Assembly: GCF_900099835.1 (NCBI RefSeq) | Contig: NZ_FNKP01000003.1 | Span: 1,240,001 to 1,304,000 of the forward strand | DNA length: 64,000 nt | Direction: 5' to 3' | From: Paraburkholderia fungorum | Lineage (GTDB): Bacteria > Pseudomonadota > Gammaproteobacteria > Burkholderiales > Burkholderiaceae | Shown: piece after piece, positions 21,950-32,401 of the stretch | Layout: each line of letters starts with the position of its first letter | How positions within the stretch are numbered: position 1 is the first letter of the stretch | Made by a program: the position numbers and the translations under genes | Notes under the pieces: model-generated | The model's database searches: none | Told to the model about the DNA's origin: nothing | The model's input: only the letters and a program-made list of their open reading frames with translations

Positions 21950-22240
21950 TCAACTGCTGCATACCGATTTCACGATCGACGGAAACTCCGAGTGCGACAA
22001 ATGCGCGCGCGCCTGGCCGCAGCGGAACGCCTGAATCTCGGCGCGATTGGCCGGCGGCGACGGGTACGTGTACATCTCGTCATTGGCCATCGTGCCGGTC
22101 AGAAAGGCCCGGTACAGCTCCTGGCGAACCTGCAGGCGGCTGATTCCCGTCGGGGCGGATTGTGTCGGCACGGCAAACGCCGAGGCGGTGGGCAGGGCGA
22201 TTGCGCTTGCGATCAGAAGCAGGGAAAGGGTTCGTTTCAT
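21950..22240 (-). CDS. small exported protein, DUF4148-like
   Basis: The 96-aa protein has a clear signal peptide (MKRTLSLLLIASAIALPTAS, cleavage near AFAVP). The mature part is about 70 residues and includes ISRLQVRQELYRAFLTGTM, which resembles the short DUF4148 repeat common in exported Burkholderia proteins. Two cysteines (in RCGQ and SVCSS) could form a disulfide. The start at 22240 is set by the signal peptide; the frame is open upstream. It is divergent from the response-regulator gene and has the shared regulon motif 101 bp upstream. Its function is not known. Confidence 0.62.
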   Translation of the reverse strand: MKRTLSLLLIASAIALPTASAFAVPTQSAPTGISRLQVRQELYRAFLTGTMANDEMYTYPSPPANRAEIQAFRCGQARAHLSHSEFPSIVKSVCSS

Positions 22241-22341: not shown

Positions 22342-22359
22342 AACATGAAGCTTCCTTTA
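22342..22359 (-). promoter_or_regulatory. regulon motif, copy B (upstream of the DUF4148-like gene)
   Basis: On the minus strand the sequence reads TAAAG-GAAGCT-TCAT-G-TT, matching TAAAG-N6-TCAT-N-TT exactly. It points toward the DUF4148-like gene, 101 bp from its start codon. It is one of four matching sites in the 22-32 kb efflux locus. Confidence 0.6.
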
Positions 22360-22434
22360 GCGATCCCTCCAGCGCTTCACAGGTGCGCGTTAGACGCCTT
22401 CCAGCATGAGGCGGCCACACAACCGGCCGCAACC

Positions 22435-22452
22435 TAAAGGATTTCTCATCTT
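22435..22452 (+). promoter_or_regulatory. regulon motif, copy D (upstream of the response regulator)
   Basis: TAAAG-GATTTC-TCAT-C-TT lies on the plus strand, 72 bp before the response-regulator start. If the regulator binds it, the operon would be autoregulated, as is common for OmpR-family systems. Confidence 0.55.
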
Positions 22453-22524
22453 CACGGTTAATGGCTTTGCGATACTGTCGGCTGTTCTCATCGAAGGCCG
22501 ATGCTCGCAGCGGAGGCGTTAGCC

Positions 22525-23202
22525 ATGACCAGAATCCTGACGATTGAAGACGACCCGATCGTGGGTCGCGACATTACCGATACGTTGCGCGACGCCGGTT
22601 TCGACGTGGAGTGGGTACGCACGGGGCAGGAGGGCATCGCCCGCGCGGTGGACCCCGTGTTCGACGTGATCACGCTCGACCGCGTGTTGCCCGGCATCGA
22701 CGGCCTGACGATCGTCAAGACGATTCGCGGCGTGGGCATCGAGACGCCGGTGCTGATGATCAGCGCGCTATCCGATGTCGATGAGCGGGTGAGCGGACTG
22801 CTGGCAGGCGGCGACGACTACATCGCCAAACCCTTCGCACCCGATGAGATGAAAGCGCGCGTGCAGGTGCTGCTGCGTCGCCGTGGCCGCTTGCAACAGC
22901 CGGTCGCCACGATGCTCAAGGTCGACGATCTGGAGATCGACCTGATCGCGCGTTCTGTGCGGCGCGCGGGTCAGGAAATCGCGTTGCCGCCGGTCGAATT
23001 CAGGCTGCTCGAATACCTCGCGCGCAACTCCGGCCAGATCGTCACGCGGACGATGATCTTCCAGTCTGTCTGGGACATGCACTTCGATCCGGGGACGAAC
23101 CTGATCGAGGTGTACATCGGCCTGCTGCGCAAGAAAATCGACACCCAGGGCATGCGGCCGTTGATCAAAACCGTCCGCGGATCGGGTTACATGCTGGGCT
23201 GA
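22525..23202 (+). CDS. OmpR-family response regulator
   Basis: The 225-aa regulator has a complete receiver domain: acidic residues E8, D9 and D10, phosphoacceptor D52 (in VITLDRVLPG), and the conserved Lys in YIAKPF. A winged-helix DNA-binding domain follows from about residue 130 (LPPVEFRLLEYLARNSGQIVTR, ending KTVRGSGYML). ATG 22525 is chosen because CGGAGG lies 8 bases upstream; an in-frame start at 22501 is less likely. It is followed at once by a histidine kinase gene. It probably controls the RND pump at 25.5 kb through the shared motif. Confidence 0.92.
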   Translation: MTRILTIEDDPIVGRDITDTLRDAGFDVEWVRTGQEGIARAVDPVFDVITLDRVLPGIDGLTIVKTIRGVGIETPVLMISALSDVDERVSGLLAGGDDYIAKPFAPDEMKARVQVLLRRRGRLQQPVATMLKVDDLEIDLIARSVRRAGQEIALPPVEFRLLEYLARNSGQIVTRTMIFQSVWDMHFDPGTNLIEVYIGLLRKKIDTQGMRPLIKTVRGSGYMLG

Positions 23203-23211
23203 GAGATGACT

Positions 23212-24573
23212 ATGAGTCTGTGGCGCACGACGATTTTCCGCCTGTTGCTGATGTTCGCGCTGGTGTTCGCGGTGTCGATGTCGGGGCTGGTGTATCTGAA
23301 CTACTGGAAATCGGCGTCCTATACCGCGACCCAGGCGGATTACAACATCAACTGGCAGTTCGCTTACTTTTCGTCGCTGCCAGTCGATCAGATGCCGACG
23401 CAGATTGCCGCGCATATCCGCAGTGAAATGCACCGTCCGACGAATTACTATGGCCTGTTCGCCGCGGACCGCACATGGATTGCCGGCGACATCGTCGCGC
23501 TGCCCAAAGACGTGATCGCCGATGCCGACGGCGTGTGGAGCAAGCCCGAGTTGAACGGACAGTCGAGCGCCCGGCCCGAGTACATGCGCACCAAAGCCAT
23601 GCGTCTCGCGGATGGCAACGTGCTCGTCATTTCTCGCGACGTCGACGAAATGGCACGGCTGCGCGGCTATATGCTCGGCGGCCTCGCATGGAGCGCGGCA
23701 ATCGTGATGCTGGGCGGCCTGGGCGTGGGGCTGCTGGTGTCGACGGCGCAACTGCGGCGCGTCAACGAGGTGCGACGCGTGGCGCAACAGATTGCACTCG
23801 GCGATCTCGACGCCCGCTTACCCGATGCGGGCCGCGACGAAATCGCGTGGCTGTCGCAGATTGTCAATCACATGCTCGACGAAGTATCGCGGCTGATGCG
23901 CGAAGTGAAGGGCGCTTGCGACGGCATCGCACACGATCTGCGCACGCCCGTGATCCACATTCGTTCGCTGCTCGCGCGTATTCCAACAGAAGGTATGGCT
24001 GCCGAAGACGCGCAACTCGTCGATCAGGCATTCGACGAAGCAGACGAAGTACTAAAACGCTTTGCCGCCATCATGCGCATTTCCGAAATCGAGTCGATGA
24101 ACCGGCGAAAAGGCTTCTGCGATGTATCGATGGAAGACCTTTGCCGTAAGGTGGGCGACCTGTACGCTCCGGTTGCCGCCGCCCGGCGTGTGCAACTGGT
24201 GCAGGATCTGCAAAGCGTACCGATGGTGCGTGCCGACTATCCGCTGATGTTCGAAGCGCTCGTCAATCTGCTCGACAACGCGATCAAATTCACGCCGGAA
24301 GGGGGACGTGTGCAGCTTTCCGTCAGCGCCGCGTCTGACGGTCCGCGCATTGTCGTTCAGGATAACGGTCCCGGCATTCCCGACTCGGAGCGGCTGGCGG
24401 TTTTCCAGCGCTTCTATCGAAGCGAATTGACCAGCACCGTGCCCGGTTCCGGGCTTGGGTTGTCGGTCGTGCAGGCGGTCATGCATCTGCACGAGTTCGA
24501 ACTGAGCTTGTCGGATGCGATGCCGGGACTGTGCGTCACACTCGACTGCTGGCAGCATCGCACTCGCGCATAA
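23212..24573 (+). CDS. sensor histidine kinase
   Basis: This inner-membrane kinase of about 453 aa is partner of the preceding regulator. It has one membrane helix at the N-terminus, a periplasmic domain of about 130 residues, a second helix (AAIVMLGGLGVGLLVS) and a HAMP linker. The dimerisation domain has the phospho-His in GIAHDLRTPV. The ATPase domain shows the N-box LVNLLDNAIKF, G1 VQDNGPGIP and G2 GSGLGLSVV. ATG 23212 has GAGAG at a usable distance, while ATG 23206 abuts it. The sensed signal is not evident from the periplasmic part. Confidence 0.9.
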   Translation: MSLWRTTIFRLLLMFALVFAVSMSGLVYLNYWKSASYTATQADYNINWQFAYFSSLPVDQMPTQIAAHIRSEMHRPTNYYGLFAADRTWIAGDIVALPKDVIADADGVWSKPELNGQSSARPEYMRTKAMRLADGNVLVISRDVDEMARLRGYMLGGLAWSAAIVMLGGLGVGLLVSTAQLRRVNEVRRVAQQIALGDLDARLPDAGRDEIAWLSQIVNHMLDEVSRLMREVKGACDGIAHDLRTPVIHIRSLLARIPTEGMAAEDAQLVDQAFDEADEVLKRFAAIMRISEIESMNRRKGFCDVSMEDLCRKVGDLYAPVAAARRVQLVQDLQSVPMVRADYPLMFEALVNLLDNAIKFTPEGGRVQLSVSAASDGPRIVVQDNGPGIPDSERLAVFQRFYRSELTSTVPGSGLGLSVVQAVMHLHEFELSLSDAMPGLCVTLDCWQHRTRA

Positions 24574-24584
24574 AGGAACCGGAC

Positions 24585-25271
24585 ATGCGGATTGTTTGCG
24601 TGGGAACCAGCGGCGCGCAGCGCTATCTTGCGGAAGCACTCGCTGAGTCGAATCACAGCGTCGTCCAATTCAACCATTTCGACGATGCCGCTTATCTGGC
24701 GAGCGCCGAGCATGTCGATGCGATCATCGTGCTGACCTCGGGCGGCGCATCCGACGCAGCGCGAGCGTTTGCCGTGCGTCCCGCTCATACGGTGCTGGTG
24801 GTGATCGACCGCCAAGGTCAGAAGGACGCCCGCGTGGCCGCGCTCGAAGCGGGTGCCGATATCTGCCTGGATCATCCGTATGAATATGCGGAACTGCACG
24901 CGCGATTGCAGGCGCTTTGCCGTCAGCGCGATCATGCGGCATTGGCTGCTGCGAGACCCTTAACACCGTCTGCTGCGTTCACGCGACCGCTCCTCTCTCC
25001 GGCCACTCGCAGCCTCGTCGGTCGCGATGGCGACCAACTGCTTTTACGCAAACGAGAGTATCTGTTGATGGACCGGCTGCTGCGTGTGCCCGGCGAAGCC
25101 GTCGCGCGCGACGAACTGGTCGACTATATTTTCGGCGAAGCCGATGCCGACACCACGTCGCTTCATCTGCTCGTGTCGAGGTTGCGCGCCCGTCTATCCC
25201 AGACCAATCTGCCCATCACGTTGATGACCGTGCCGAAGCTCGGCTATCGCGCCGTCGTGAATGCGGACTAG
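24585..25271 (+). CDS. response-regulator-like protein with a degenerate receiver domain
   Basis: The 228-aa protein has the two-domain plan of an OmpR-type regulator, but its receiver lacks the key residues. The first strand reads IVCVGTSG with no acidic pair, the position of the phospho-Asp is Leu50 (DAIIVLTSGG), and the conserved Lys is replaced by His in LDHPYEY. The C-terminal winged helix looks intact (LRKREYLLMDRLLRVPGEAVARDELVDYIFG, then LHLLVSRLRARL). The gene follows the kinase by 11 bp, behind AAAGGA. Atypical receivers of this kind are phosphorylation-independent regulators in other bacteria. Here it may modulate the partner regulator or directly bind DNA. Confidence 0.8.
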   Translation: MRIVCVGTSGAQRYLAEALAESNHSVVQFNHFDDAAYLASAEHVDAIIVLTSGGASDAARAFAVRPAHTVLVVIDRQGQKDARVAALEAGADICLDHPYEYAELHARLQALCRQRDHAALAAARPLTPSAAFTRPLLSPATRSLVGRDGDQLLLRKREYLLMDRLLRVPGEAVARDELVDYIFGEADADTTSLHLLVSRLRARLSQTNLPITLMTVPKLGYRAVVNAD

Positions 25272-25333
25272 CTGTTTGCATCAGGCAAGCGGCTCGCTAC
25301 ACGCGCGCTGACGAAGCGCGTTGTTCCCTTCAC

Positions 25334-25351
25334 TAAAGATTCCTTCATCTT
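25334..25351 (+). promoter_or_regulatory. regulon motif, copy A (upstream of the RND efflux operon)
   Basis: TAAAG-ATTCCT-TCAT-C-TT lies on the plus strand, 121 bp before the RND transporter start. The wider region around it (to 25358) matches copy C at 32.35 kb in 23 of 24 bases. Confidence 0.65.
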
Positions 25352-25472
25352 TGCGCCACGGCGGCCTTTAACGGCGATCGCAAAATGACCCGGCATGTCC
25401 TGGATCGGCCTTCACTGATCGGGGAACGAGGTCCGTGTTCTGGCGGACTTCACTGACCGGAGCTCGTATTCG

Positions 25473-28400
25473 ATGTTAAGGCTTGTCCGTCTCGCGCTAT
25501 CGAAGCCGCACACGTTTGTGGTCATGGCGCTGCTTATCCTGATCGTCGGGCCGCTCGCCGCGATGCGAACGCCGACCGATATCTTTCCCGACATCCGCAT
25601 ACCGGTGATCAGCGTGGTGTGGCAATACACGGGGCTGCAGCCGGGCGATATGTCCGGGCGAATCGTGACCTACTACGAGCGCTCGATCGGCACGACCGTC
25701 AACGATGTCCAGCATATCGAGTCGCAGTCGTACCGCAGCTACGGCATCGTCAAGATCTTCTTCCAGCCGTCGGTGGATATTCGCACCGCCACGGCCCAGG
25801 TCACGTCGATCTCGCAGACGGTGCTCAAGCAGATGCCGCCCGGCACCACCGCGCCGCTGATTCTGAACTACAACGCGTCGACGGTTCCCGTGCTGCAGAT
25901 CGCGTTGATGAGCGATCGTCTCGACGAGCAGAAGCTCGCCGATTACGCGACCAACATCATTCGTCCGCAACTGTTGAGCGTGGCGGGTGTGGCGATTCCG
26001 ACGCCATACGGCGGCAAGACACGTCAGGTGCAGATCGATCTGAATCCGGCCGAACTGGTCGCGCATGGTTTGTCGGCGGAAGACGTTGCGACCGCTCTCG
26101 CGCGGCAGAATCAGATCATCCCGGCTGGTACGCAGAAAATCGGCGACTTCGAATACAACGTGCACCTGAACAACAGCCCGTTGTCGATCGACGCATTGAA
26201 CCGCCTGCCGATTAAATCCGTCAGTGGCACCACGGTGCTGATGCGCGATGTCGCGCACGTGCGCGACGGCTTCGGCCCGCAGGGCAACATCGTGCGAGTC
26301 GACGGACACCGCGCGGTGTTGATGAGCGTGCTGAAAAGCGGCTCCGCTTCGACACTCGATATCGTCAGCGGTATCAAGGATCTGCTGCCTGGCATCAAGG
26401 CCACATTGCCGGCAGGTTTGAAGCTCGTCGTGATGGGCGACCAGTCGGTATTCGTGAAGGGCGCGGTGACGGGCGTGGCGCGCGAAGGCGTGATTGCGGC
26501 GGCGCTGACCTCGTTGATGATTCTGCTGTTCCTCGGCAGCTGGCGTTCGACGCTCATCATCGCGACCTCGATTCCGCTCGCGGTGCTGGCGGCGATTGCC
26601 GGACTCGCCGCGCTCGGCGAAACGCTGAACGTGATGACGCTGGGTGGCCTCGCACTCGCCGTCGGCATTCTGGTCGACGACGCGACCGTCACCATCGAGA
26701 ACATCAACTGGCATCTGGAGCAAGGCAAGAACGTGCGCGACGCGATTCTCGACGGCGCGGCGCAGATCGTGACGCCCGCATTCGTGTCGCTGCTGTGTAT
26801 CTGCATCGTATTCGTGCCGATGCTGCTGCTCGACGGTGTCGCGCGATTCCTGTTCGTGCCGATGGCCGAGGCCGTGATTCTGGCGATGGTGTCGTCGTTC
26901 ATTCTGTCGCGAACGTTGGTGCCGACGCTGGCCATGGCGCTGTTGAAGCCGCATGCGCATCTGCAGGATGGTCACGACAGCGAGCATATGGCGGTGTCGA
27001 ATCATCCGCTTGCGCGTTTTCAGCGCGGTTTCGAAGCGTCGTTCGAGAAATTGCGCGCGGGCTATTCGGGACTGTTGCATCTGGCGGTGGCGAATCCGCT
27101 GCGCTTTGCGGCGGGGTTCATCGTCGTGACGCTGGTGTCGTTCGCGACTTTGCCGTGGCTGGGCATGAACTTCTTCCCCGATATCGACGCGGGCGAAATC
27201 GCGCTGCATGTGCGTGCGCCGGTCGGCACGCGGGTCGAACAGGTCGCGGCATTGCTCGACCGTGTGGAGGGCAGCGTGCGCCAGGTGATTCCGCCTGCCG
27301 CCGTGGACAGCATCATCGACAACATCGGCTTGCCGGGCAGCGGTATCAATCTCGCATATAGCAACAGCGGCACGATCGGCCCGCAGGACGGCGACGTACT
27401 GATCGGCCTGACCGGCAAGCACGCACCCACCGCGAGCTACGTGAAGACCTTGCGCGAACGCTTGCCCGCGATCTATCCCGGCGTGACGTTCTCGTTCCTG
27501 CCCGCCGATATCGTCAGTCAGATTCTGAATTTCGGTGCACCGGCTCCTATCGATATCCAGGTGTCGGGCACCAACGAAGCCGGTAATCGCCGCTACGTCG
27601 AGGCACTTTTGCAACGCGTGCAGCACGTGCCGGGCATTGCGGATGCGCGTATCCAGCAAGCGTTCGACTATCCGCAACTGAGCGTGAACGTCGACCGTAT
27701 TCTCGCGGACCAGCTCGGCGTGACCGAGCAGGACATCTCGAATGCGACGGTCGCAAGTCTGTCGGGCACCTCGCAGGTCGCGCCGACTTTCTGGCTCGAT
27801 CCGCGCAATGGCGTGTCGTATCCGATCGTCGCGCAGACACCGCAATACCGGATGACCACGCTCGATTCGCTGCGCACAATGCCCGTCAGCGGCACCGGCG
27901 GCGCGCAGCTGCTCGGCGCACTCGCGACGATTCACCGTGGCGTGACCAGCGCAGTGGTGTCGCACTACAACATCATGCCGCTGGTCGAGATTTACGCGAC
28001 GCCGCAAGGCCGCGATCTGGGCGGCGTCACCGACGACATCGGCGAAATCGTGCGGCAGATGCAGCCGCAATTGCCGGTCGGCTCGCACGTGACGATTCGC
28101 GGCCAGGTGCAGACCATGCACAGCGCGTTCGCGGGCCTGCTGCTCGGCCTGGCCGGTGCGGTGCTGCTGATCTATCTGCTGATCGTCGTCAACTTCCAGT
28201 CGTGGCTCGACGCCGCCGTGATCGTCTCGGGCCTGCCCGCTGCATTGGCGGGCATCGCGTGGATGCTGTTCGTTACGCACACGAGTATCAGCGTCCCGGC
28301 GCTGACCGGCGCGATTCTATGCATGGGCGTCGCGACTGCGAACAGCATTCTGGTCGTCAGCTTCGCGCGCGAGCGGCTGGTGGCGACGCAGGACTCCGTC

Positions 28401-28694
28401 AAGGCCGCACTGGAAGCAGGCTTCACCCGCTTCCGTCCGGTATTGATGACGGCGCTCGCGATGATCATCGGCATGGCGCCGATGGCGCTCGGTCTCGGCG
28501 ACGGCGGCGAGCAGAACGCGCCGTTGGGACGCGCGGTGATCGGCGGCTTGATCTGCGCGACGATGGCCACGCTGATGTTCGTGCCCGTGGTGTTCAGCTT
28601 CGTGCATCGACGCAAGACTGCGGATAGCGCCGCGAGTGGCCATGACCAAAAAGACGACGTGACTGTCAACGAGGAAAACCATGTCAACCAATGA
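25473..28694 (+). CDS. RND-family efflux transporter, inner-membrane permease
   Basis: This is the proton-driven drug or metal exporter subunit of a tripartite pump, 1073 aa. It has the RND plan: an N-terminal helix, a large periplasmic loop, helices 2-6, then a repeat of the same arrangement. The proton-relay Asp pair is present in GILVDDATVTIENI (about residues 402-403), and the second half shows LGMNFFPDIDAGEI and the closing helices GMAPMALGLG. The substrate is not readable. It is the first gene of a pump operon with the adaptor (14-bp overlap) and outer-membrane factor. The inner-membrane gene coming first, before the adaptor, is unusual but known. Confidence 0.93.
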   Translation: MLRLVRLALSKPHTFVVMALLILIVGPLAAMRTPTDIFPDIRIPVISVVWQYTGLQPGDMSGRIVTYYERSIGTTVNDVQHIESQSYRSYGIVKIFFQPSVDIRTATAQVTSISQTVLKQMPPGTTAPLILNYNASTVPVLQIALMSDRLDEQKLADYATNIIRPQLLSVAGVAIPTPYGGKTRQVQIDLNPAELVAHGLSAEDVATALARQNQIIPAGTQKIGDFEYNVHLNNSPLSIDALNRLPIKSVSGTTVLMRDVAHVRDGFGPQGNIVRVDGHRAVLMSVLKSGSASTLDIVSGIKDLLPGIKATLPAGLKLVVMGDQSVFVKGAVTGVAREGVIAAALTSLMILLFLGSWRSTLIIATSIPLAVLAAIAGLAALGETLNVMTLGGLALAVGILVDDATVTIENINWHLEQGKNVRDAILDGAAQIVTPAFVSLLCICIVFVPMLLLDGVARFLFVPMAEAVILAMVSSFILSRTLVPTLAMALLKPHAHLQDGHDSEHMAVSNHPLARFQRGFEASFEKLRAGYSGLLHLAVANPLRFAAGFIVVTLVSFATLPWLGMNFFPDIDAGEIALHVRAPVGTRVEQVAALLDRVEGSVRQVIPPAAVDSIIDNIGLPGSGINLAYSNSGTIGPQDGDVLIGLTGKHAPTASYVKTLRERLPAIYPGVTFSFLPADIVSQILNFGAPAPIDIQVSGTNEAGNRRYVEALLQRVQHVPGIADARIQQAFDYPQLSVNVDRILADQLGVTEQDISNATVASLSGTSQVAPTFWLDPRNGVSYPIVAQTPQYRMTTLDSLRTMPVSGTGGAQLLGALATIHRGVTSAVVSHYNIMPLVEIYATPQGRDLGGVTDDIGEIVRQMQPQLPVGSHVTIRGQVQTMHSAFAGLLLGLAGAVLLIYLLIVVNFQSWLDAAVIVSGLPAALAGIAWMLFVTHTSISVPALTGAILCMGVATANSILVVSFARERLVATQDSVKAALEAGFTRFRPVLMTALAMIIGMAPMALGLGDGGEQNAPLGRAVIGGLICATMATLMFVPVVFSFVHRRKTADSAASGHDQKDDVTVNEENHVNQ

Positions 28695-29883
28695 GATCCG
28701 AGCTTCATCCGACGACGGCACGGCAAAGCGTCTGCGTCGTCTGCGTATTGCCGGCGTGATTGCGGTGCTGCTGGCAGTCGGCGTCTATGCCGAAGGGGTG
28801 TCGAGCCGGCTTCATACCGACCACAGCCTGTCCGCCTGGACCAATGCGCAAGCCGTGCCGTCGGTACGCGTGCTGTTGCCCGTCGCGGAAACCGGCGGCG
28901 CGAGTTTCGATCTGCCGGGCAGGCTCGAAGCGCATGACGACGCGTCGATTCATGCGCGCGTGTCAGGCTATATGAAAGCGTGGTACGTCGATATCGGGGC
29001 GAAGGTCAAGCAAGGTCAGAAACTCGCGACAATCGATACGCCCGAGCTGGATCAACAACTGGCGCAGGCGCAGGCCGATCTCGCTCGCGAGAAGGCCGAC
29101 CTCGCGCTCGCGACGAGCACGTCAGGACGCTGGTCGGCGATGCTGAAGCAGGACTCCGTTTCGCGACAGGCCGCCGACGAGAAGAGTTCGGAACTCGCCG
29201 TCAAACGCGCCGATTACGCGGCGGGTGAAGCGAACGTTCGTCGCCTGCAGGCACTCGAATCGTTCCGCACGCTGACCGCGCCGTTCGACGGCATCGTGAC
29301 CGCGCGTCACGCCGATATCGGCGCGCTGGTGAGTGCGGGCGATACGGGCGGCCCGGAACTTTTTTCGGTCGCATCGACCGCGCAATTGCGGCTGTACGTG
29401 CGCTTGCCGCAAGACTACGCGGGACGGATCGTGCCGGGCATGCATGTGACTTTTGACGTGCCGGAGCGGGCCGGGAAGTCGTTCGATGCAACCGTGGCGT
29501 CGAGCAATGACGATGTCGACGCGCAATCCGGCACGCTGCTGGTGCAACTGAACGCGGACAATCATGACGGCCTGTTGATTCCAGGCGAATACGCGCAGGT
29601 GCATTTCACGTTGCCTGCGGCAGCGGGTAATGTGCGTGTGCCGGCCAGCGCGTTGCTATTTCGCGGCAGCCATCCGCAACTGGCGGTGGTCGATGCGAAC
29701 GGCCGTGTCGCATTGCGCGACATCGTGATCGGCACCGACTACGGCACGGCGCTCGATATTGCCAGCGGCGTGCAGCATGGCGACCGTGTGATCGACAATC
29801 CGCCCGATTCGATCGTGGCGGGCGAGGCGGTGAAGATCGTCGAGTCGAAGGATGCAGGCAATGGGAGCCAGGGTCATGCATAG
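28681..29883 (+). CDS. RND efflux periplasmic adaptor (membrane fusion protein)
   Basis: This 400-aa adaptor bridges the RND permease and the outer-membrane channel. It has a single N-terminal membrane anchor (IAGVIAVLLAVGVYAEG). A lipoyl half-motif (DLPGRLEAHDDASIHARVSGYMKAWYVDIGAKVKQGQ) is followed by a helical hairpin with coiled-coil character (QLAQAQADLAREKADLAL) and a second lipoyl half (APFDGIVTARHADIGALV). Beta-barrel and membrane-proximal domains follow. The start overlaps the permease stop by 14 bp, which supports translational coupling. Confidence 0.92.
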   Translation: MSTNEIRASSDDGTAKRLRRLRIAGVIAVLLAVGVYAEGVSSRLHTDHSLSAWTNAQAVPSVRVLLPVAETGGASFDLPGRLEAHDDASIHARVSGYMKAWYVDIGAKVKQGQKLATIDTPELDQQLAQAQADLAREKADLALATSTSGRWSAMLKQDSVSRQAADEKSSELAVKRADYAAGEANVRRLQALESFRTLTAPFDGIVTARHADIGALVSAGDTGGPELFSVASTAQLRLYVRLPQDYAGRIVPGMHVTFDVPERAGKSFDATVASSNDDVDAQSGTLLVQLNADNHDGLLIPGEYAQVHFTLPAAAGNVRVPASALLFRGSHPQLAVVDANGRVALRDIVIGTDYGTALDIASGVQHGDRVIDNPPDSIVAGEAVKIVESKDAGNGSQGHA

Positions 29884-31291
29884 AGTGCTTCGCATGACGG
29901 CGTGCGCGATGGCGGCCACGCTCGCCGCGTGTTCGTTCGCGCCGGTTTATCACGCGCCGGCGTTGCCGCAGGTTGCCGCGTTCAAGGAGGCGCCCGCGCC
30001 GTCCGGTGTCTGGCACTACGCGCAATGGCCGGCGAAAGTGCGTCACGACGAATGGTGGAGAGCATTCGGCGATCCAACTCTCGATCGTTTCGAAACGCAG
30101 CTTGTGAAGGACAATCCGCAACTGGCTGCTGCGGTGGCGCGGCACGACCAGTCCAGCGCCGACCTCGATACTGCGCGTTCGGGGCTGTTTCCATCGTTGA
30201 CGCTCGAGGTGGATAGCGAGCAGAACCGTCAGTCGGACTATCGTCCGCTGCGCGGTTCTGGGCAACCTGCCACGTATGGGTCGCACACGGCTTCAATCGG
30301 CGTGTCGTATGAGCTGGATCTGTGGGGCAAGGTGCGCAACGAAGTGCGCGCCGGGGCCGCGCAGCAGGCGGCGAGCGTGGACGATCTGGCCGCCGTTAAA
30401 TTGCTGCTGCAAGCCGATCTGGCAAACGCCTATTTCGACACGCGCGGGCTCGACGAACAGGCCGATCTGTTGACGCGCACCCAGGTCGCCGATGCGAAAG
30501 CGTTGAAGCTCACCGAGAACCGTCATGCAGGCGGTATTTCGTCGGAACTGGACGTGTACCGCGCTCGCACCGAACTCGAAAACGTCGCCGCCGATCAGGC
30601 CCGCGTGCGTCGCGCACGGGCTGCTGCCGAACATGCGCTGGCGACGCTGGCCGGCGTACCGGCATCGCTGTTTACGCTTCCTGTTGCCCAGACGTCGGCG
30701 ACGGTGCCTGATGTGCCTGCGGGCGTACCGTCCGAGTTGCTGCAACGGCGGCCCGATATCGCCGCTGCGGAGCAACGGGCTGTCGCGGCCAATTACGCAA
30801 TCGGTGTGGCGCGCGCAGCGTGGTTCCCCGATATCTCGCTTGGCCTGGCGGGCGGCTTCCAGTCCGACGATCCGGGTAACTGGCTGAGCGCGCCTGCGTC
30901 GTTCTGGTCGCTCGGTCCCGAACTCGCGGTCGATCTTTTCGATGGCGGCCGACGCAACGCAATGGACCATCGCGCTCGCGCGGTCTTCGACGAACGTAGC
31001 GCCGATTATCGGCAGGTGGCGCTCCAGGCGTTTCGCGAGGTCGAGGATCAACTGGCGAACGTGCGCGAGTTGCGCAGCGAAGCGCAGCACGAAAGCGCCG
31101 CCGCCGACGATGCGCAGGGCGCGCTCACGCTCGCTACCGGGCAGTATCGCGATGGCGCGGTGAGTTATCTCGATGTGGTCGCGGCACAGACGTCGGCGCT
31201 CGATGCTCAGCGTTCGTTGATTCAGGCGCGGACGGGGCAGTTGCTGGCAGCGGTGAATCTGATCCGGGCGTTGGGCGGTGGGTGGGATTGA
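29876..31291 (+). CDS. outer-membrane efflux lipoprotein (TolC/NodT type)
   Basis: This is the outer-membrane channel of the tripartite pump. The 471-aa lipoprotein is exported by a signal ending TLAACS, with the acylated cysteine near residue 19. Two outer-membrane efflux repeats are visible: DEWWRAFGDPTLDRFETQLVKDNPQL early, and PSELLQRRPDIAAAEQRAVAANYAIGVARAAWFPDISL in the middle, both typical of the NodT family. ATG 29876 overlaps the adaptor stop by 8 bp. A frame open to 29852 exists but would bury the signal. Confidence 0.92.
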   Translation: MHRVLRMTACAMAATLAACSFAPVYHAPALPQVAAFKEAPAPSGVWHYAQWPAKVRHDEWWRAFGDPTLDRFETQLVKDNPQLAAAVARHDQSSADLDTARSGLFPSLTLEVDSEQNRQSDYRPLRGSGQPATYGSHTASIGVSYELDLWGKVRNEVRAGAAQQAASVDDLAAVKLLLQADLANAYFDTRGLDEQADLLTRTQVADAKALKLTENRHAGGISSELDVYRARTELENVAADQARVRRARAAAEHALATLAGVPASLFTLPVAQTSATVPDVPAGVPSELLQRRPDIAAAEQRAVAANYAIGVARAAWFPDISLGLAGGFQSDDPGNWLSAPASFWSLGPELAVDLFDGGRRNAMDHRARAVFDERSADYRQVALQAFREVEDQLANVRELRSEAQHESAAADDAQGALTLATGQYRDGAVSYLDVVAAQTSALDAQRSLIQARTGQLLAAVNLIRALGGGWD

Positions 31292-31446
31292 GCGGGTTCG
31301 ACGCGTACATGCTGGTGTGGCACGCACGCATGCACGCGTCGATAGCCGGGAAATCCTGGAGCGGAATGTCGTGCGGCTATCCGCTCCAGCTCGCCGATTT
31401 GCAGTACGGCTTCGAGCTTATTCCGCGATGTAGTGATGACGGCCTG

Positions 31447-32205
31447 TTAGCCGTTGGTGATGTCCTTGAGCAGGACCCGTCCGTTCATCATCGGTGTGGC
31501 AAGCGTGAGCGCATAGTCCGCGCGGATCGTGCCGATGATCGGTCGTTTCAGATTTGCCTGATGAGTGGCGTCGCTGGTCCAGCGCTCCAGTTGCACCATC
31601 GAATCGGCATGCCCCGTGTCCTCGAAGACATCGAATGAGATATTGCCGGGCGCGGCGCGAAAGGTCGGCGTCACATTGGCGATGTCAGTGCGGAACTGCT
31701 TTTCTGCGGCGCTTTTTACGCTCAGGAATACCAGCACATTACTGGTCTGATCCGCGTGGGTAATCTCTTTGGGCTGGGAGTCGTCGCCGGGGCTAACCGG
31801 TGCAATGCGCATGTGACTGATCGGACCGTCCAGATCGTCCTGCGCCGCCTTGTGCATCGCGAGCAGTGCAGGCTGCTGCATATGCACTTTATACGCGGCT
31901 TCGGTGCTCCATTGTTCTAGTACATAGAGCGTCGACGGAGTCGATAGCGATTGAAATATCGTGAACGAAATATTGCCCGGCGCATGACGCGCATCTGCCG
32001 CGTTCTGACGCAAGACAGTTTCGAACGGCTTCAGCGCAGATGATTTGACGTGCAGCGTAGAGAGATTTTCGTACGGCGGCGGGGTGTCGGCCGGTGCGGC
32101 CGATGCCGCTGATGCAGTCGTAAAAGGAATCAGAGTCAGCGGGACGATGCTCGCGACGAGTGCCAACTTCTGTCTGGCGGCGATGAACGGCTTGTAGTTG
32201 GACAT
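31447..32205 (-). CDS. exported protein with two antibiotic-biosynthesis-monooxygenase (ABM) domains
   Basis: The 252-aa protein has a signal peptide (LALVASIVPLTLIPFTTASAAS) and two similar ferredoxin-like ABM domains, at about residues 45-135 and 150-245. Each carries the same spaced pattern: NISFTIFQ then YVLEQWSTEAAYKVHM in the first, NISFDVFED then VQLERWTSDATHQANL in the second. ABM domains act as cofactor-free quinol oxygenases (YgiN type) or bind small hydrophobic ligands, usually in the cytoplasm. An exported tandem is unusual. The gene faces the RND operon tail-to-tail and has the shared motif 148 bp upstream of its start. Confidence 0.78.
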   Translation of the reverse strand: MSNYKPFIAARQKLALVASIVPLTLIPFTTASAASAAPADTPPPYENLSTLHVKSSALKPFETVLRQNAADARHAPGNISFTIFQSLSTPSTLYVLEQWSTEAAYKVHMQQPALLAMHKAAQDDLDGPISHMRIAPVSPGDDSQPKEITHADQTSNVLVFLSVKSAAEKQFRTDIANVTPTFRAAPGNISFDVFEDTGHADSMVQLERWTSDATHQANLKRPIIGTIRADYALTLATPMMNGRVLLKDITNG

Positions 32206-32353
32206 GAAGATCCCTTGGTAGCGGTTGGTCCTTCATGCCGGAGGGTCAGGCGTGATCCTGATTCTTGTGTCGCGAAGAACGCCATGCGCCGACGCTCCGG
32301 CAAGTGATGCCGTAGAAGAATACGCATAGCGTTTGCGGGAAAAACTGGCGCAA

Positions 32354-32371
32354 AGATGAAGGATTCTTTAT
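32354..32371 (-). promoter_or_regulatory. regulon motif, copy C (upstream of the tandem-ABM gene)
   Basis: On the minus strand the sequence reads TAAAG-AATCCT-TCAT-C-TT, followed by TGCGCCA as at copy A. It points toward the tandem-ABM gene. The 24-base match with copy A, broken at one base, is the strongest evidence that the motif is functional. Confidence 0.65.
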
Positions 32372-32401
32372 TTTTAGAGGGCCACAGGCCATGCTTCTTA
32401 T

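Follow-up and report, generated by a model that had tools for sequence, protein, structure and literature searches.

A short inverted-repeat box that recurs in a 64,000-nucleotide stretch of the Paraburkholderia fungorum genome (contig NZ_FNKP01000003.1, positions 1,240,001 to 1,304,000; hereafter the window) is very probably the operator of a response regulator encoded in the same stretch. On the strength of sequence comparison, this regulator (22525-23202) would be a class II activator resembling CusR and AgrR that governs a regulon of five promoters. Four of these lie in the window and would drive the regulator-kinase-companion operon, a divergent DUF4148 gene, an operon for a resistance-nodulation-division (RND) pump and a gene for an exported protein with tandem ABM domains. 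The fifth would drive an unlinked gene for an exported dehydroquinase. The relevant features of the window are as follows.

21950-22240, minus strand: small DUF4148 protein of 96 aa with a signal-like N-terminus (PF13663, E=4.7e-08)
22342-22359, minus strand: predicted operator site 1 (TAAAGGAAGCTTCATGTT), exact match, 101 bp upstream of the DUF4148 gene and identical in genome G056
22435-22452, plus strand: predicted operator site 2 (TAAAGGATTTCTCATCTT), exact match in the regulator promoter, suggesting autoregulation
22466-22477, plus strand: TTTGCGATACTG, with GATACT at 22471-22476, a probable -10 element 18 nt past site 2
22525-23202, plus strand: OmpR-family response regulator, the proposed binder (PF00072 and PF00486)
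23206-24573, plus strand: sensor histidine kinase (HAMP and HATPase_c)
24585-25271, plus strand: companion protein with a winged-helix domain and a receiver-like half (PF00486 alone above its cut-off)
25334-25351, plus strand: predicted operator site 3 (TAAAGATTCCTTCATCTT), exact match, 121 bp upstream of the RND permease gene
25473-28694, plus strand: RND permease (PF00873, E=1.1e-195)
28681-29883, plus strand: periplasmic adaptor of the membrane fusion protein (MFP) type (TIGR01730, 204 bits, above cut-off)
29870-31291, plus strand: outer membrane efflux protein (TIGR01845, 378 bits, above cut-off)
31447-32205, minus strand: tandem ABM-domain protein with a signal-like N-terminus (PF03992, two stretches)
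32353-32370, minus strand: predicted operator site 4 (TAAAGAATCCTTCATCTT), exact match, 147 bp upstream of the tandem-ABM gene

The motif cluster exceeds chance expectation

A preliminary description of this DNA had reported four copies of the string TAAAG-N6-TCAT-N-TT, each pointing toward the gene behind it. A scan of both strands of the window with this exact pattern returns four matches, and the same scan of 100 dinucleotide shuffles returns none; the cluster is far beyond chance. The orientation is fixed at all four sites as had been stated, and the first three copies stand where they were placed, at 101, 72 and 121 bp from the start codons. The fourth, however, occupies 32353-32370 on the minus strand, not 32354-32371, and is 147 bp rather than 148 bp from its gene. 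This site can also be read in the opposite direction at 32357-32374 with two mismatches, which had gone unremarked. The likeness given for the copies at 25.3 and 32.35 kb (23 of 24 bases) is close, as they have 24 of 27 bases in common from TAAAG onward and differ once within the first 25. The chance expectation of 0.03 is likewise correct for uniform bases (0.0305), and at the 61% GC of the window the figure is about 0.005.

Extending the scan to the entire genome (8,581,175 bases in four contigs) brings no flood of random matches, just five exact copies in 8.58 Mb where composition predicts about 0.66, and the reversed pattern has none. The fifth copy lies 138 kb from the window cluster, upstream of an exported type I dehydroquinase (PF01487). 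Taken alone this copy is within chance, so its support comes from comparison with other species. When one mismatch is allowed in the same genome, 95 matches are found against 43 for the reversed control, and another relaxed pattern gives 29 against 5.

Chance matches or copies of a dispersed repeat could produce such strings, given the 0.66 copies expected per genome and the single copies that do occur in genomes lacking the regulator. For the sites as a set, however, this origin is extremely improbable. No shuffled sequence matches the four copies of the window, the sequences flanking the sites are mostly unlike one another, and the sites are kept in other species, which excludes chance for the cluster as a whole.

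The sites recur with the regulator across the genus

We compared 144 genomes of the same genus, in 12 of which an orthologue of the regulator with 76-100% identity is present (regulator-positive; the other 132 are regulator-negative). The following tier of similar proteins reaches at most 62%. Eleven of the 12 orthologous regulator promoters carry TAAA(G/A)-N6-TCAT, and in all 12 the hexamer GATACT stands exactly 21 nt past the TCA(T/C) arm. Because the box appears to occupy the place expected for a -35 element and a probable -10 element lies downstream, the regulator probably recruits RNA polymerase at this promoter as a class II activator.

The proposed targets follow the same distribution. 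The exported dehydroquinase gene is found in five of the 144 genomes, all among the 12 that are regulator-positive (Fisher p 1.6e-6), and the tandem ABM gene in six, five of them among the 12 (Fisher p 9.5e-6); neither value is corrected for shared ancestry. All five dehydroquinase genes keep the site, including the window genome's at 138 kb, in upstream regions that are otherwise much diverged; the stretch common to the five is CTAAAGAA..CTTCAT.TTT.G. In genomes G103, G108, G137 and G138 (by coordinates, loci L037, L038, L039 and L042) the dehydroquinase gene lies on the same contig as the regulator gene, approximately 3.3-3.6 kb from its start. The ABM gene of G137 and G138 is on a contig other than the regulator's; an exact site lies upstream of its likely start codon, at a distance of 60 bp in G137 and 56 bp in G138. 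The divergent DUF4148 gene occurs in eight of the 12 regulator-positive genomes, with an exact site in two and a weaker one in six. When promoter regions are aligned across relatives, sites thus recur upstream of orthologous genes, some of them on other contigs, and they track the presence of the regulator. The earlier proposal that one regulator serves several promoters is well supported by this pattern. Its label of an efflux regulon applies to this genome and P. metrosideri but not elsewhere, since a pump with at least 98% identity is present in two of the 144 genomes versus 12 for the regulator.

A porin gene adjoins the dehydroquinase gene in several species. Near the exported dehydroquinase at L037:15606-19568 there is also a set resembling a GMC oxidoreductase, a cytochrome c and a small subunit, names that are impressions from sequence.

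Profiles of the sites were used for more sensitive searches. The first was built from 19 of 24 collected rows. Site 1 and the pump site each had one duplicate that was removed, as were two ABM sites in their reverse reading and the site of G116; the regulator sites of G138, G137, G108 and G083 were left out as well. In the organism's own genome this profile reports exactly the five sites at E<=10 (150 of 1275 first-look candidates scored), all five of which were in its training set. A second profile was made from 12 sites of other species, to which neither this genome nor P. metrosideri contributed, and was applied with stricter filters to the 144 genomes. It recovers four of the five sites of this genome, the pump site being missed. 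At E<=0.1 all 12 regulator-positive genomes are matched, nine of them in training. Among the untrained genomes, G000 (this genome) and G056 match at cluster sites and G000 at the dehydroquinase too; the sole match in G083 is 92 bp upstream of a porin-like gene. A string, TAAAGGAAGTTTCATTTT, is common to L214:1508-1525 (G083:C15), where it lies 92 bp upstream of a porin-like gene, and to G044:C105:343314, in a genome that has no close regulator orthologue.

Several observations weigh against assigning these sites to a single regulator and its regulon. The promoter box of G083, whose regulator has 76% identity, is degenerate. The DUF4148 site is weak in six of eight genomes, where its place is kept and the proximal arm reads CTTAAT, and the ABM site of G108 is degenerate (two mismatches). 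G116 has the ABM gene and no close regulator orthologue; its related site, TGAAGAAAGTTTCATGTT, is in the divergent region on the opposite strand and could belong to the neighbouring divergent gene. Within the genus, the pump site depends on two genomes whose pumps are 98% identical. The conserved -10 spacing was examined at the regulator promoter only. Dyad symmetry within the clade is modest: it holds for 0.59 of pairs in the 19 sites, a value that 33 of 2000 column permutations reach. Finally, at E<=0.1 the 12-site profile also matches three of the 132 regulator-negative genomes (G028, G044 and G111), the exact string is present at least once in 49 of these 132, and a reversed control pattern matches in about 50 of the 144 genomes. 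By itself, the exact 11-base string lacks specificity. Part of this background is explained by porin-like genes, as four examined regulator-negative matches (G077, G106, G107 and G134) are their start codons. The exact matches in L217-L220 are porin-like start codons with the sequence ATGAAGAAA..CTTTA.

Shape of the predicted operator

Read as sequence, the motif string covers the greater part of ATGAAR-N4-YTTCAT, an imperfectly palindromic 16-bp inverted repeat with 6-4-6 geometry. The preliminary description had not noticed this repeat, of which its string covers one and a half arms. At the ABM promoter of P. metrosideri (L035:19868-19891) the corresponding sequence, AAAGATGAAGGATCCTTCATCTTT, is perfectly palindromic over 24 bp, and its counterpart in the window is AAATAAAGAATCCTTCATCTTT; the string would therefore comprise a full proximal arm and a piece of a decayed distal arm. 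The consensus of the 19 clade sites is ACCTAAAGGATCCTTCATnTT, with T4, A6, A7, TCAT at 15-18 and T20 invariant. We propose that the kinase (23206-24573) signals to the regulator, which would probably bind ATGAAR-N4-YTTCAT as a symmetric dimer, the promoter-distal arm having presumably decayed to CTAAAG in this clade. From the -35 position the bound regulator would probably recruit RNA polymerase, giving class II activation rather than repression, and the five promoters would probably respond to a common inducer.

A promoter element for an alternative sigma factor would likewise be oriented toward its genes, as the window copies all are, and would keep a constant distance to a conserved downstream element, as the box does in the regulator promoter. 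This alternative to an operator is nonetheless very unlikely. The gap between the two conserved blocks is just 6 nt, the distant version of the box is a clean palindrome, and a separate -10-like element is present downstream.

A similar box precedes pump genes of distant relatives

The distant comparison comprised 62 loci, among L043-L114, that have a kinase and a pump at the right distance. We scanned the region from -150 to -50 of each pump gene and used 1240 random 100-base segments of the same loci as the control; true sites may fall partly or wholly within some of these segments. The sequence ATGAA-N6-TTCAT is found exactly in 42 of the 62 regions, with at most one mismatch in 54 and with at most two in 58, compared with 6, 6 and 19 of the 1240 control segments. 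Of the 58 loci, 49 have their best-scoring site 80-97 bp upstream of the pump gene, three have it at 107 and six at 142; in the nine loci of the latter two groups there is another site as well, at -89 or -95. Pumps of this kind thus have a closely similar predicted operator upstream in organisms that range from Burkholderiaceae to Rhodanobacteraceae and Solimonas.

These distant loci also bear on which protein binds. In the window, the winged-helix domain of the companion (24585-25271) scores above the cut-off, and the companion's receiver-like half, as read from the sequence, is without the usual acidic pocket, phospho-acceptor Asp and Lys. Each of the eight Paraburkholderia loci L035-L042 encodes the companion behind the kinase, together with the regulator, and a heterodimer of the two proteins would account for the unequal arms of the box. 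However, the kinase-pump gap is shorter than 300 bp in 53 of the 62 distant loci, too short for a companion gene, yet the box with at most two mismatches is present in 58. Among the 18 loci with open reading frames listed, a similar companion follows the kinase in L046, L047 and L077; no box with at most two mismatches lies upstream of the pump in L046 and L047, and L077 has no adjoining pump. Binding by the companion, or by its heterodimer with the regulator, is consequently improbable. The 22525 regulator, which had been named the obvious binder, is the best candidate on these comparisons, as the distant box precedes the pump adjoining this regulator.

The interpretation of the asymmetric box as the mark of a heterodimer was not retained as the principal one, because the companion would not fit into most loci that bear the box; in L046 and L047, which have companion and pump, the recognition helix is a different one and such a box is absent. 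Another element (AAGGAATTAA / AAGGAATAAA) is common to L046:9762, L047:7972 and L077:9865, upstream of regulators with the helix VN.HMSRLRKK.

Paralogues in the same genome raise the question of cross-binding. The cluster at G000:C1:1577000-1600000 (L211, L212) encodes a regulator, kinase and companion, porin-like genes, an adaptor, a pump and another regulator. Its regulators are 58-59% identical to that of the window and its pump, which adjoins one of them, is 75% identical. Boxes of the form TAAAA-N6-TTCAT (TAAAACAAATTTCATTCT and TAAAACTTGTTTCATTTG) lie near these paralogues, and their similarity to the window sites makes cross-binding possible, a further point against a single binder. The boxes may conceivably be common operators of paralogous regulators, such as the ones encoded at G000:C1:1582054 and C1:1594738, with an in vivo regulon that blends two or three systems, much as Pseudomonas CusR, CopR and CzcR have one palindrome in common according to the excerpted text of PMC11195947. 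We consider such blending a real but somewhat unlikely possibility. The exact TAAAG form is confined, within this genome, to the window cluster and the dehydroquinase, and the dehydroquinase and ABM genes track this regulator (12 of 144 genomes) and not the commoner paralogues (93 of 144, E<=1e-60).

TAAAG accompanies the clade helix EVYIG.LRKKID, and ATGAA accompanies the distant helix DVHIGRLRRKID. A simple code from helix to half-site is not clean, as a paralogue of this genome with the helix DVHVGRLRKKVE has a TAAAA box.

Relation to known metal-responsive systems

The regulator has a receiver and a winged-helix domain, with the phospho-acceptor Asp read from the sequence VITLDRVLPG. Its best NCBIfam family is cztR_silR_copR (TIGR01387), at 194 bits, below the cut-off of 279.2. 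The kinase is similarly below the TIGR01386 cut-off (129.6 versus 292.55 bits), and the RND permease reaches the cut-off neither of the CusA/CzcA model TIGR00914 (400.6 versus 701.45 bits) nor of RND_permease_2 (519.7 versus 1250). The nearest solved DNA-binding domain is that of PcoR (PDB 2jzy, E=3.3e-20), which differs from the regulator in the recognition-helix stretch (TNVIDVAVRRLRSKID versus TNLIEVYIGLLRKKID). No paper on this two-component system was found among the literature searched.

The inverted repeat has the 6-4-6 geometry of a CusR/AgrR-type operator, imperfectly in this clade, and its half-site, ATGAAR/YTTCAT, does not match those of either regulator (ATGACA/TGTCAT, ATKACA/TGTMAT). 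The available portion of PMC7380067 reports that AgrR of Cupriavidus metallidurans binds a 16-bp 6-4-6 imperfect inverted repeat, ATKACANNNNTGTMAT, whose promoter-proximal half is better conserved; the repeat is centred at -43.5 in the regulator's own promoter and the -35 elements are poor, which the authors interpret as type II activation. AgrR and the system described here are alike, as far as that portion goes, in the OmpR family, the 6-4-6 repeat, the better proximal half and, to judge by the regulator promoter, apparently also the position near a poor -35 element. They differ in half-site and in targets, which are a silver resistance regulon there and the pump, DUF4148, ABM and dehydroquinase genes here.

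Escherichia coli CusR binds the inverted repeat AAAATGACAAnnTTGTCATTTT, as quoted in the excerpt of PMC11195947, and the K-12 site is visible at L265:3513-3528, between cusR and cusC. The spacing is the same as that of the box described here, ATGA(C/A)-N6-(G/T)TCAT, with a difference of one base pair per half-site. An RND efflux operon is beside both systems, although the pump here is below the CusA/CzcA cut-off. In the same excerpt, Pseudomonas CusR controls its own gene, which is oriented divergently from the target operon, much as is predicted for the regulator here; the Pseudomonas half-sites (ATTCATnnATGTAAT, GAAACn6GTAAT) differ, and a metal response is demonstrated for the CopR, CzcR and CusR systems.

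Implications for the proposed regulon

The signal-like N-termini read from the dehydroquinase, ABM and DUF4148 sequences, together with the pump, suggest a role at the cell envelope. Acetic acid bacteria oxidise quinate to 3-dehydroquinate and dehydrate the latter to 3-dehydroshikimate (PMC9171043, from the accessible part of the text). We tentatively raise the rather doubtful idea that regulators of a metal-type lineage were recruited to respond to plant hydroaromatics or phenolics, with one envelope-sensing kinase switching on dehydroquinase, ABM protein, porin and pump jointly. By this guess, the dehydroquinase would turn 3-dehydroquinate into 3-dehydroshikimate outside the cytoplasm, the ABM protein would be oxygenase-like, and the pump would take part in two species. 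Metal sensing is the conservative alternative.

Overall, the design of the proposed regulon is a known one, and its half-site and target set appear new. The two-component system gains a predicted operator and a short list of targets, including an unlinked one found by the motif itself. The TAAAG, TAAAA and ATGAA half-sites, with their differing recognition helices, form a natural series on how paralogous regulators stay separate. Since closely similar predicted operators precede this kind of pump in distant relatives too, one binding experiment would aid annotation of the system in dozens of genomes.

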